From: Kiritimatiellaeota bacterium B1221
GTDB taxonomy: Bacteria > Verrucomicrobiota > Kiritimatiellia > SS1-B-03-39 > UBA6053
NCBI GenBank assembly: GCA_029269125.1
Contig: JARHXX010000008.1
Span: forward strand, 1 to 64,000
Length of the DNA stretch: 64,000 nucleotides
Direction: 5' to 3'
Below are positions 25,135 through 30,478 of the stretch, piece by piece. The notes under the pieces are model-generated. The model did no database searches. It was not told the origin of the DNA and saw only the letters and a program-made list of their open reading frames with translations. Made by a program: the position numbers and the translations under genes. How positions within the stretch are numbered: position 1 is the stretch's first letter; each line of letters opens with the position of its first letter.

Positions 25135-26496
<1,362 letters not shown>

Positions 26497-26636: not shown

Positions 26637-26999
26637 TCAGGGATTCACGGAGGGCGCAGGCAATTTAAACACCGGAGCGTTTTGCTCCCAGTGCACATCG
26701 GAATATCCGAAATGATACCCGCGCCCGCCAGATCTCACATAAAACAGAAAAGACGGATCAAGGATTCTCTTGTGCGGGAATGAAGCGTTTCCATCCTCGT
26801 CGGTGACGACATCGGGATACAAAAGGTGGCCGGAATTCATCGACATCATCCCAATGCACGCGCCACTGACAGGCTTCCCAAACTGATTTTCAACTCGCAT
26901 CGAATGGATGCGGTGTGACTGACACGCTGTAAGCATGCATAAAATGATAAGAAGAGATGAACCGCAAAATGAACCCAACCCCCGTCGGCTCCTAAACAT
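26637..26999 (-). CDS. Small lipoprotein, last gene of the CHAD-ParA operon
   Basis: A 120-residue protein with an N-terminal hydrophobic stretch and lipobox (IILCMLTACQ), lipidated at about Cys26. The mature part (MRVENQFGKPVSGACIGMMS, then VVTDEDGNASFPHKRI) resembles a carboxypeptidase-regulatory-like or Ig-like beta sandwich, as in 'xPVxGAxVxxxxxxGxxTTDxxGxF' domains. No function is known. It overlaps the NUDIX gene by 8 bp (26992-26999), so it belongs to the same transcript, although its envelope location sets it apart from the other five products. Confidence 0.65.
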   Translation of the reverse strand: MFRSRRGLGSFCGSSLLIILCMLTACQSHRIHSMRVENQFGKPVSGACIGMMSMNSGHLLYPDVVTDEDGNASFPHKRILDPSFLFYVRSGGRGYHFGYSDVHWEQNAPVFKLPAPSVNP

Positions 27000-27369
27000 G
27001 TTTACTCATTTCTTTCAGCACCTCATGCAGATCTTTTTTCAAATATTTCTCCGCATCTTTCAGTGAAACCTCCATCCGTTTCCGCTCCTGCTGTTCCGGA
27101 TAGCGGTCTTTTACTTTTTTGACCCGCATTAAATATATGTGCAGATAATCCGCTTTGCACGAATTCACTTTAAACTTCCGGTGCTCCGGCTCCACCCTGC
27201 CGATTAATCCCGCCTCCTCAAACGCTTCCATTTCTACAACATCCCGGTCCTTCTTTCCCTTTTCACAATGCCCTTTCGGAAAAATCCAATAGGAACGGTC
27301 TTTGTTTTGAATTAACACCACCTTCCCTCCAGACGTAACCGGAAAAGCACCTACTTGATATTCACTCAT
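26992..27369 (-). CDS. NUDIX hydrolase
   Basis: A 125-residue single-domain NUDIX protein. The box is recognisable but partly altered: GHCEKGKKDRDVVEMEAFEEAGL keeps Glu residues of the REUxEE part (ME-A-FEE) while the Arg and the first Glu of the consensus are replaced. Other fold features (WIFPKGHCEKG, EHRKFKVNSCKADYLHIYLM) match the diadenosine-polyphosphate/diphosphoinositol group. It likely cleaves a pyrophosphate bond in a nucleotide or polyphosphate-type substrate, but the altered box makes activity uncertain. It overlaps both neighbours (4 bp with the CYTH gene, 8 bp with the lipoprotein gene). Confidence 0.8.
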   Translation of the reverse strand: MSEYQVGAFPVTSGGKVVLIQNKDRSYWIFPKGHCEKGKKDRDVVEMEAFEEAGLIGRVEPEHRKFKVNSCKADYLHIYLMRVKKVKDRYPEQQERKRMEVSLKDAEKYLKKDLHEVLKEMSKHV

Positions 27370-27830
27370 ACTGGCTTCCCCCTTACGGCCAAATTTTTAT
27401 TTTTGTAACGGGCGTCATCCGTCACTTCGGATCCCAAATAAGCCGGGAGCGGAAAATCTCTGCTTTCCTGTTCTGAGGGAAATTCCACTTCCGCCACCAC
27501 CAATGACGCCAATTCTTTTTCATACACATCCAACTCCACCACATAATCCCCTTCAGGAATTCGATATCGTTTCTTTTCAATACGCTGCCCCTCAGTGAGA
27601 GGCCACAACTGCATAAATTGATCTTCACTCAACTCGACCTCTTCTTCCATACGCACCAGTCCACTCCCCTGCTTTACGGTGAGCAGGTAACGGGATGGTT
27701 CATCCCGCAACCGCACTTCGGTTTCACCGGTCGTCAGATACCCCTGACGTAAAAAGTGATATTCCACTCCCCGTAAATCCGGCAATGTTTGAATCAAAAA
27801 TTTCCGTTCGATTTCATAACTTTTATTCAT
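27366..27830 (-). CDS. CYTH-domain phosphatase-like protein
   Basis: A 154-residue CYTH (triphosphate tunnel) protein. The start is the ATG at 27828-27830, one base into the ParA stop (TAATG); the frame extends upstream inside parA but is not believed. The signature ExExKF appears as YEIERKFL at residues 5-12, with later tunnel residues in EVRLRDE, LTVKQGSG, RIEKKRYRIP and YVVELDVYEK, all typical of bacterial tripolyphosphatases and CYTH adenylyl cyclases. It likely hydrolyses tripolyphosphate or a nucleoside triphosphate. The neighbouring CHAD and NUDIX genes favour a role in inorganic polyphosphate turnover. Confidence 0.85.
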   Translation of the reverse strand: MNKSYEIERKFLIQTLPDLRGVEYHFLRQGYLTTGETEVRLRDEPSRYLLTVKQGSGLVRMEEEVELSEDQFMQLWPLTEGQRIEKKRYRIPEGDYVVELDVYEKELASLVVAEVEFPSEQESRDFPLPAYLGSEVTDDARYKNKNLAVRGKPV

Positions 27831-28567
27831 TATTCCTCCGTCACTTCTTTCCATAAATTCCGAAAAGCCATACTGGCTGCATGGCGCGGCGCATAGGCCA
27901 ATACCGGCTCCCGATGCACGCCCATCGCCTCCACCTGCGCGCAATAGGGTATCATCGTTTTTAATAAACGTTTTTCCGATGCACGCAGCGTCTCCACACT
28001 GTCCTGATGCAAGCGCTTGCGTTTTTCCACCATGGAAAAGAAAGGGCGTAACTTTTTCTTCTTATAATCTTTCTGGTCAAAAAAAACTTTTAACTGCTCG
28101 TAAGTTCTTAAGGAAAGCGTGGTGGGGATGACCGGAATCAGCACCACATCCGCAGCTTTAAAAATATTTTCAGCCACATGACTGAGCGTGGGCGGACAGT
28201 CCAATACAACCTGGTCGTAGTCCCCCGAGACCTCCGACACAAAATCCGCCAGACGGCTTTTTGACCGCTTCATCCCGTCGAGAACCGCGTCAAAGTTCCG
28301 GTACGCCCGATGGGCGGGCAACAAGTGCAATCCGGGATAATCCGTTTCCCGAATCGCCTCCAGGGCCCCGGATTTTCCCTTCATCACCGCCCGGGCGTCG
28401 CTTTTTCCCGACGACCGGATGCGGAAATAATATCCCGAGGCCCCCTGTTGATCCAAATCGATCAATAAGGTGCGATTCCCCGCCCGGGCGGCGTAATACG
28501 ACAGATTCACTGCCGATGCCGTTTTTCCCACCCCGCCTTTACTGCTGTATAACGCTATGATACTCAT
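27830..28567 (-). CDS. ParA/MinD-family ATPase without HTH domain (type Ib-like)
   Basis: A 245-residue Walker-type ATPase. It begins directly with the deviant Walker A (SSKGGVGKTASAVNLSYY; KGGVGKT at residues 10-16), has the Asp of A-prime in YDQVVLDCPPTLS and the 'VLIPVIPTTLSLRTYEQL' switch. There is no N-terminal helix-turn-helix and no C-terminal membrane amphipathic helix, so it resembles small type Ib ParA proteins (ParF, delta) that pair with ribbon-helix-helix partners. Such a partner is encoded two genes upstream. The ATG overlaps the CHAD gene stop by 4 bp. It may move DNA or a cargo such as a polyphosphate granule along the nucleoid. Confidence 0.88.
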   Translation of the reverse strand: MSIIALYSSKGGVGKTASAVNLSYYAARAGNRTLLIDLDQQGASGYYFRIRSSGKSDARAVMKGKSGALEAIRETDYPGLHLLPAHRAYRNFDAVLDGMKRSKSRLADFVSEVSGDYDQVVLDCPPTLSHVAENIFKAADVVLIPVIPTTLSLRTYEQLKVFFDQKDYKKKKLRPFFSMVEKRKRLHQDSVETLRASEKRLLKTMIPYCAQVEAMGVHREPVLAYAPRHAASMAFRNLWKEVTEE

Positions 28568-30093
28568 TGGTTTTCCTCCCCGAACAACGCTTCAAATCGG
28601 ATCATCATTTTTCCGTCACAAAATTCCGCAAACCGTTCCTGCACATGCGAGCGTGCCTCCAATTGCTTGGCCGCCAGCACCACAATCAATCCTCCCAGTG
28701 CGGCCGCACATTGCCGGTCCGGCTGATGCACCTTTTGTAAATACGTCTGCATGTTTTCTTTTTGCACGGCGCAGTCATTAAATTCTCCCAATACATTCTG
28801 CAACCCCTTCATCCGCTTCAAAATCTGTTTCAAAGGCTTGGGTGCCATCAAGGATGAAAACAGCTCCAACAGATAACGCAATTTTTTGCACTCAATCCGC
28901 AGGGCATGCACTTCCTCATCCTCGGTATTTTCGTTCAGAGACCGTCCAAATTTCTGTACGTGTTTAAAATGCTTCAACAGTTCTTTGCGCACCACTTCCC
29001 CCATCTCTAAATCCGCATATTTCCCCCGGGGAAGGTTGGCATTCCGCCACCAGTCTTCCAAGGATGCCAAATGTTCCCTATAAGCTTTCGAAGCCAGCCT
29101 TCGCGACGTGCACCCCTTCACCCGGGAACGTTCCGCGCGGAAATCCTTAAACACTCTGTCCAATCCCGGAGCCAAAAAAGCCGGCAGTTGACTTCGGTAT
29201 GCCCCCTCTTCCAGCAGGTAAACATCCAGGTCACGGTGCCGGTTAGTCTCCCGGGCCAGATTGCCGAACTCTTTCTTTAACCACTTGGTTTCCGCTGGCG
29301 GGTAGGCACCTTTAATCAGGGTAATGACAGAACGGAGTTTTCGGATCGCAACCCGGTAGTCATGCAAAAACTCGCTATCAATATCATCGATGATCCCCTG
29401 TTCATTTTGCCGTACCACCTTCATCATTTCCTGGGCAATGTGGGTGACCGCGGCATGCACACTTTGATCGCCCCGCAAATCGATCATGGATTTCGGTGAT
29501 AAAGGTCGTTCCGATTTTTCACTCCATTGCAAAATGGTGTCAATCAGCCGGGTCGAAACGGATTCCAAGCCCGTCTGACTCGATAGCAGGCCGGAAATTT
29601 CTTCCGCTTCGTGATCATATCCCTCCAAAGGCCGGATTTGCAAAGTAATCCGGGCCTCCTCCCTCTCCTCTAAGGATCCCCGTTCCTGCAACAGCCTCAG
29701 CACAATTTTTCCATCTTCATTGCGCACATTCAATTGCTGGCAGATGAAAACCACGGTTGCGAAAGGTTGGGCCGCCCGGAGTTTCAAATAAGACTTCAAC
29801 TCCGACTGAAATTCACCCGCAGGGAAGTCCCACCAAAAGACCGGACGCTGGTGGCGGACCACGCGGTCGGAGACCACCTCGTTCGAAATGAGATCCTCCG
29901 CATCCACCAAACGAAAACGCCCTTGTGACCGGATCAGTGCCCGCCCTTTATCAATCAGGTTACAGTCGAAACTGTCATAAATCTGTACGGATCTTGACGT
30001 GTGACTTCCACGATCCACAGAATATTTTTCACCCAACGCCGACTGAATCACCGGAAGCTCCCCCTCCATGCATTCCCAAAATGTCGTCCTCAT
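28564..30093 (-). CDS. CHAD-domain protein with a CYTH-like N-terminus
   Basis: A 509-residue protein in two parts. Residues 1-190 look like a degenerate CYTH domain (QIYDSFDCNLIDKGRALIRS corresponds to the usual 'YYDTxDxxLxxxGxxLRxR'; a later VLRLLQERGSL strand fits). Residues 230-500 form a CHAD domain with its paired conserved-His helices: 'HDYRVAIRKLRSVITLIKGA', 'ETNRHRDLDVYLLE', 'VHALRIECKKLRYLLELFSS' and 'LGEFNDCAVQKEN'. CHAD is a basic helical bundle that binds polyphosphate and in other bacteria locates to polyphosphate granules. The gene lies between the RHH and ParA genes, overlapping both by 4 bp, an unusual place within a partition-like cassette. Confidence 0.88.
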   Translation of the reverse strand: MRTTFWECMEGELPVIQSALGEKYSVDRGSHTSRSVQIYDSFDCNLIDKGRALIRSQGRFRLVDAEDLISNEVVSDRVVRHQRPVFWWDFPAGEFQSELKSYLKLRAAQPFATVVFICQQLNVRNEDGKIVLRLLQERGSLEEREEARITLQIRPLEGYDHEAEEISGLLSSQTGLESVSTRLIDTILQWSEKSERPLSPKSMIDLRGDQSVHAAVTHIAQEMMKVVRQNEQGIIDDIDSEFLHDYRVAIRKLRSVITLIKGAYPPAETKWLKKEFGNLARETNRHRDLDVYLLEEGAYRSQLPAFLAPGLDRVFKDFRAERSRVKGCTSRRLASKAYREHLASLEDWWRNANLPRGKYADLEMGEVVRKELLKHFKHVQKFGRSLNENTEDEEVHALRIECKKLRYLLELFSSLMAPKPLKQILKRMKGLQNVLGEFNDCAVQKENMQTYLQKVHQPDRQCAAALGGLIVVLAAKQLEARSHVQERFAEFCDGKMMIRFEALFGEENQ

Positions 30094-30242
30094 TTTTTCC
30101 CTTTCAAGTAATTTTCGATAAGCGTTTCTAAAATTTTCTGCACACTGGTATCTTCTTTAATCGCACGGATTTTCAACGCTTTTAAAGTCTTCTCCTCCAG
30201 ACGCAGTGAGGTGTTCTTTAATTTAATTTTATTCTTTGCCAT
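30090..30242 (-). CDS. Short ribbon-helix-helix DNA-binding protein
   Basis: A 50-residue open frame from the ATG at 30240-30242 to a TGA sharing four bases with the CHAD start (ATGA, 30090-30093). It is basic and lysine-rich, with a clear RHH pattern: a strand (KLKNTSLRLEE), helix A (KTLKALKIRAIKED), the turn TS and helix B (VQKILETLIENYLKGKK). This is the size and fold of CopG, ParG and omega-type regulators. As the first gene of the operon, preceded at 10 bp by four 8-bp-spaced repeats, it should bind them as a dimer array, both repressing the operon and acting as the ParB-like centromere binder for the ParA two genes downstream. The role is inferred; the reading frame is directly visible. 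Confidence 0.78.
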   Translation of the reverse strand: MAKNKIKLKNTSLRLEEKTLKALKIRAIKEDTSVQKILETLIENYLKGKK

Positions 30243-30251
30243 ACCTACAGA

Positions 30252-30283
30252 TGAAGTCATGACGTCATTATGTCAACACATCA
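30252..30283. promoter_or_regulatory. Four tandem 8-bp repeats: operator/centromere-like site
   Basis: The 8-mers TGAAGTCA, TGACGTCA, TTATGTCA and ACACATCA run head to tail from 30252 to 30283, sharing the TCA end and a TGAcGTCA consensus. They begin 10 bp upstream of the RHH start codon. RHH proteins bind direct repeats as stacked dimers, for example 8-bp met boxes by MetJ and 7-bp repeats by omega. A TTGACA-like -35 (30271-30276, minus strand) falls inside the array, so binding would block transcription. Confidence 0.6.
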
Positions 30284-30478
30284 TTTTTCATATTTTTTTC
30301 ATGTACCCCAATCCTCCCGTCATTGCTCGATACGAGCCGATATTAAAGCCGCTTTCCCGGGAAACACCATTTCAGAACCAACGCAGCTCAAAAATGCCGG
30401 TCACCGCCTTTTGAGGGCGGTAATGGATTCGGCCGAACAAAGCTTGCATCTGAAAATACCTTCTGCAAAATCCCTCGT

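Follow-up and report, generated by a model that had tools for sequence, protein, structure and literature searches.

A ParA-type ATPase co-inherited with a CHAD protein: a candidate positioning module for polyphosphate granules

ParA-type ATPases move DNA and carboxysomes around the cell, and polyphosphate granules are widespread storage bodies. The locus described here raises the question of how the two might be connected. That is, what does a ParA-type ATPase do in an operon that also encodes a CHAD protein, a CYTH protein and a NUDIX hydrolase? We propose that these genes form a polyphosphate-granule module in which CHAD is the cargo adaptor and ParA its positioning ATPase, a reading to which we assign a probability of roughly 0.6. 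In what follows, the window is the whole stretch of DNA that was analysed (64,000 nucleotides).

All six open reading frames first read from the sequence alone were confirmed on the minus strand, between 26637 and 30260 (table 1), and successive genes from RHH to lipoprotein overlap by 4, 4, 1, 4 and 8 bp as described. CHAD, AAA_31/ParA, CYTH and NUDIX all match Pfam above cut-off. The RHH_1 match (5.3e-4, 20.3 bits) lies just under its cut-off of 20.5 and is backed by seven aligned homologues with an invariant NTSLRL strand; RHH is accessory to the module. Relatives have no homologue of the lipoprotein at the neighbouring loci, and by this comparison it is outside the conserved gene set. In a PADLOC search for defence systems the only match was a short P-loop overlap. 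Next to the module lies a glutamate dehydrogenase gene, both in the window (25135-26472, same strand, downstream) and in genome G068 (L050 4007-5302, divergent, upstream).

Table 1. Features of the operon and its predicted operator (window coordinates).
Feature	Coordinates	Strand	Remarks
RHH protein	30090..30260	-	56 aa; conserved start probably 30242 (50 aa); RHH_1 20.3 bits; likely autoregulator
CHAD polyphosphate-binding protein (predicted)	28564..30093	-	N-terminal domain ~1-200 and CHAD domain 219-446; PF05235 3.5e-56
ParA-type ATPase	27830..28567	-	245 aa, no N-terminal HTH; 4-bp overlap with CHAD; AAA_31 1.4e-33
CYTH protein, predicted tripolyphosphatase	27366..27830	-	ExExK motif; PF01928 4.3e-6
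NUDIX hydrolase, DDP1/Ap4A hydrolase-like	26992..27369	-	PF00293 6.4e-9
Small lipoprotein	26637..26999	-	lipobox LTAC; related operons without counterpart
Predicted RHH operator	30252..30276	-	8-bp TGAC repeats; overlaps longer RHH start

The link of this gene set to polyphosphate is strong. The closest PDB matches of the CHAD protein are the C. tepidum CHAD structures 6qv7 (E 5e-59) and 3e0s (2e-59). Four residues of the C. tepidum protein that contact polyphosphate, H253, R256, R260 and R296 (PMC6537752), correspond to H244, R247, R251 and R287 here and are invariant in all 11 aligned proteins. The C. tepidum protein (CtCHAD) binds polyphosphate or its granules, and polyphosphate drives it into higher oligomers (PMC6537752). 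From the shared contact residues, the CHAD protein of the operon is predicted to be a polyphosphate binder. The CYTH family profile matches NE1496 of Nitrosomonas (3typ, 2fbl; E 8.5e-47), a characterised tripolyphosphatase. With the basic residues of the tunnel present beside the ExExK motif, and the catalytic residues invariant, the same activity is predicted for CYTH. The best PDB match of the NUDIX protein is DDP1 (7auu, E 7e-6), which, like its human relatives, has endopolyphosphatase activity. In the family alignment the NUDIX box is non-canonical against GX5EX7REUXEEXGU and keeps the ExxEExG core.

Genomic context points the same way. In genomes G192 and G293 the gene order is PPX-PPK1-PFK-NUDIX-CYTH-CHAD-ParA, and on the Paracoccus plasmid pCP157_03 the module directly follows pstA-pstB-phoU-phoB. 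The contact residues, the CYTH and NUDIX matches, and these PPK1/PPX and pst/phoU/phoB links together bear out the polyphosphate assignment of the sequence-only reading. The window's own genome encodes both PPK1 and PPK2. PPK1 is found in 14 of the 15 genomes carrying an orthologue of the operon's ParA, against a background of 283/388, a co-occurrence that is uninformative; the one genome without PPK1 (G211) has PPK2. The CYTH gene of G211 is seemingly frameshifted (L049 1265-1847). On the Thiodictyon plasmid pTs417, a full-length CHAD gene lies downstream of pstC-pstA-pstB-pstS with no ParA (L184 1-7569).

The N-terminal half of the CHAD protein had been described as CYTH-like. This did not survive profile comparison: against CYTH and YgiF, hhalign gave non-significant E values of 0.1 to 0.8. 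The domain (residues 1-200, with DTFDW... and PLKGY motifs), which has no family assignment, is conserved, and it is common to ParA-linked and ParA-less CHAD proteins. It is a candidate for the ParA contact or for a degenerate CYTH domain. There is no obvious basic, ParA-activating tail in the CHAD protein, and a structure model from the single sequence was uninformative (pLDDT 38).

Orthologues of the ParA were found in 15 of 388 genomes of the phylum at E < 1e-58, whereas the genome's own chromosomal ParA scored only 3e-26 in the same search. When plasmid, viral and chromosomal ParAs were included in a tree, those of the module grouped with a handful of lone relatives in a single clade (100/100 support), set off by a branch of 1.1 changes per site. 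By this tree, the operon ParA is a distinct subfamily, apart from other ParAs. The 80 ParA loci of viral contigs reach at most 37% identity, and none of those placed in the tree groups with the subfamily; CHAD relatives were absent from the viral contigs. The deviant Walker A motif KGGVGKT, with its signature lysine, and a DxD motif are kept, and K10, K15, D37/D39 and D123 are invariant in the 15 orthologues. The closest structure matches are Soj/ParA, with McdA also matched by profile. The arginines of the Soj motif IPRNVRL, part of its DNA-binding surface, are not kept, and one Soj-aligned basic position is. A rep-parA-parB-like locus of Nitrospinaceae, the sole find of a contig scan with the ParA protein, proved unrelated.

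The central observation is the pairing of this ParA with CHAD. In 12 of the 15 genomes that carry the subfamily, the gene immediately 5' of ParA is a full-length CHAD gene, and stop and start overlap by exactly 4 bp in eight of these 12 pairs, as they do in P. aestuarii. In the closest relative, G211, the CHAD gene crosses a contig end and is ParA-linked. Across the 388 genomes the association has a P of about 4e-16 (5e-13 by genus). Seen from the CHAD side, there are 18 full-length, close loci; ParA is linked to each of the 11 best-scoring ones and to the split G211 gene, and six of the 18 have no ParA and keep NUDIX and/or PPK1/PPX. CHAD and ParA distances are correlated (r = 0.91, or 0.66 once near copies are left out; 0 of 5000 permutations), and the two trees agree. 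The adjacency is not due to chance, and ParA stands as a recurrent, co-inherited partner of CHAD, in support of the sequence-only reading. Since the ParA-less CHAD proteins are scattered in the CHAD tree, repeated loss of ParA is suggested, in a phylum that was sampled rather than exhausted and with MAG errors that may mimic losses; phyla beyond the window's own were reached through plasmids only.

In the other direction, CHAD is absent genome-wide from three genomes with the ParA (G397, G243 and G178); G397 has just a CHAD remnant. In G243 and G178 the ParA of the subfamily follows, in place of CHAD, a gene for an SNF2-type helicase (L059 3973-7290; L061 6698-10088). Lone subfamily ParAs on Halomonas and Marinobacter plasmids have a pyruvate kinase gene nearby on the opposite strand (L067 101-835, 4131-5624; L068 3905-6747), and on the Marinobacter plasmid phbB is also near.

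RHH behaves differently. The sequence-only reading had staked itself on orthologous operons not usually lacking ParA or RHH, and the outcome is divided: ParA is present in 12 of the 18, RHH in only 3. Among the 15 genomes with the ParA subfamily RHH likewise occurs in just three, to which the Paracoccus plasmids add further cases, and its gene sits two genes upstream of parA. The octamer TGACGTCA precedes the RHH start by 25-33 bp in 7/7 RHH-bearing operons (seven cases that are not independent, four being from Paracoccus), usually within 8-bp TGAC repeats, and before 0/9 RHH-less operons. It occurs nine times in 343 kb of loci, seven of these being the sites before RHH genes. In the window it is the middle one of the octamers TGACATAA, TGACGTCA and TGACTTCA, which make up one 25-bp stretch of about three octamers. 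Its extended form TGACGTCATGA occurs just once in the 4.5-Mb genome. No centromere-like iteron array was found in the genome, which holds one short predicted operator. Most orthologous operons have no RHH, and where there is one its predicted site precedes its own gene in every case and, in extended form, is unique in this genome; RHH is therefore likelier to be an autoregulator than a partition partner, and the site looks more like an autoregulatory operator than a centromere. The sequence-only reading's 'type Ib partition cassette' is not upheld, given an RHH gene in 3/15 genomes, two genes upstream of parA, with a single short operator.

The Paracoccus plasmids carry RHH-CHAD-ParA-CYTH-NUDIX in an order identical to that of the window. 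Their ParAs nest, with 100/99 support, within a group whose other members all come from the window's own class, which makes transfer of the module probable.

Our best reading of these data is that ParA acts on polyphosphate-bound CHAD, in proposed steps that can be set out as follows. CHAD would coat polyphosphate granules via its basic pore, while ParA dimers with ATP would attach to the nucleoid without sequence specificity. Once on a granule, CHAD would touch ParA, perhaps by the N-terminal domain of CHAD, and stimulate ATP hydrolysis by ParA and its release. Granules would then follow and deplete the ParA gradient, and so end up spaced over the nucleoid and divided between daughter cells, in the way that McdB/McdA handle carboxysomes. 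The tethering and segregation of granules imagined from the sequence alone would be the result. Meanwhile, CYTH (as tripolyphosphatase) and the DDP1-like NUDIX protein may trim short chains or chain ends, and RHH, repressing from the TGAC repeats at its own start, may tune expression.

The same gene data also fit a ParA whose role is to control CHAD assembly, with no part in transport. Such a local switch or chaperone would bind CHAD and govern its assembly, its oligomerisation or the access of enzymes to polyphosphate, with no nucleoid positioning. The tight CHAD-ParA coupling with translational overlap would suit it, as would the higher oligomers that CtCHAD forms with polyphosphate (PMC6537752) and the loci that lose ParA yet keep the enzymes. 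We nonetheless consider it unlikely, as the characterised relatives of the fold (ParA, Soj, McdA and MinD) mostly position cargo and the ATPase signature motifs are intact. Granule positioning has its own points to answer: the six of 18 CHAD loci without ParA, the ParA genomes without CHAD, the lone ParAs near pyruvate kinase or helicase genes, the IPRNVRL arginines that are not kept and the want of an obvious ParA-activating tail in CHAD all count against it.

It is more doubtful still that RHH and ParA form a type Ib-like DNA-segregation cassette, stabilising the locus or a mobile carrier with the polyphosphate genes as passengers. The ParA without an N-terminal HTH, the small RHH with its basic N-terminal tail, the plasmid-borne Paracoccus copies and the conserved predicted RHH site before the operon all speak for such a cassette. 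Yet most CHAD-ParA operons lack RHH, the own genome has a single short operator, and CHAD-ParA operons lie in large chromosomal contigs, one of them a single-contig 3.2-Mb genome. Moreover, each Paracoccus plasmid has a second, larger ParA-like gene, so the module ParA need not be the plasmid's segregation protein. Lastly, this could be an ordinary polyphosphate-metabolism operon with ParA as a recurrent but functionally unrelated neighbour. Some genomes do have ParA alone or CHAD alone; against the strength of the association, the congruent trees and the joint transfer to Paracoccus, we regard this as highly improbable.

How does a granule-positioning CHAD-ParA module compare with what is known? 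According to a 2025 review, the polyphosphate-positioning proteins of Caulobacter are unidentified and the energy cost of localisation 'remains to be seen'; its table for polyphosphate granules lists AlgP alone, with ATP dependence unknown (PMC13052382). A survey of ParA/MinD cargos mentions neither CHAD nor phosphate, and the literature outside preprints and most subscription journals yielded no proposal of a ParA that serves polyphosphate granules. Because ParA and CHAD are found paired again in distant bacteria, the pair may represent the missing machinery for placing and distributing these granules. Whether it is the first ATP-driven system for positioning and segregating polyphosphate granules, with a dedicated ParA subfamily and a CHAD adaptor, phylum-wide and transferred to Alphaproteobacteria, we judge to be an even call. 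If true, ParA-type transport would extend to an inorganic polymer, and the pair offers a concrete granule-positioning candidate in cultivable Paracoccus.

Like ParF/ParG and delta/omega, the operon combines a small ParA with an RHH protein; unlike them, its RHH is dispensable, is encoded two genes upstream of parA and has a single short operator. With the CHAD proteins known as phosins (CtCHAD, E. coli YgiF and those of R. eutropha) it shares polyphosphate-contact residues and PPK/PPX/CYTH gene neighbours, whereas the coupling to ParA is added here and the N-terminal domain is not detectably CYTH. The genus-conserved folD-ppk-parA-CHAD cluster of Acidithiobacillus, where parA adjoins ppk and a CYTH-CHAD gene, resembles it in gene content and was published without a positioning interpretation (PMC10892726; PMC6416229). 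The outcome proposed here, even spacing of polyphosphate granules on the nucleoid, recalls the AlgP-dependent spacing of these granules in Pseudomonas aeruginosa, although AlgP is a histone-H1-like DNA binder with no ATPase known (PMC9239181). From McdA/McdB the module differs in its partner (CHAD, not McdB), its predicted cargo (polyphosphate) and its closest structures, which are Soj/ParA. It resembles them in the McdA profile match, in the proposed nucleoid-gradient logic and in an HTH-less ParA-type ATPase beside the gene of a cargo partner: a candidate cargo-binding protein, CHAD, is encoded with the ATPase, as McdAB-like positioning demands.
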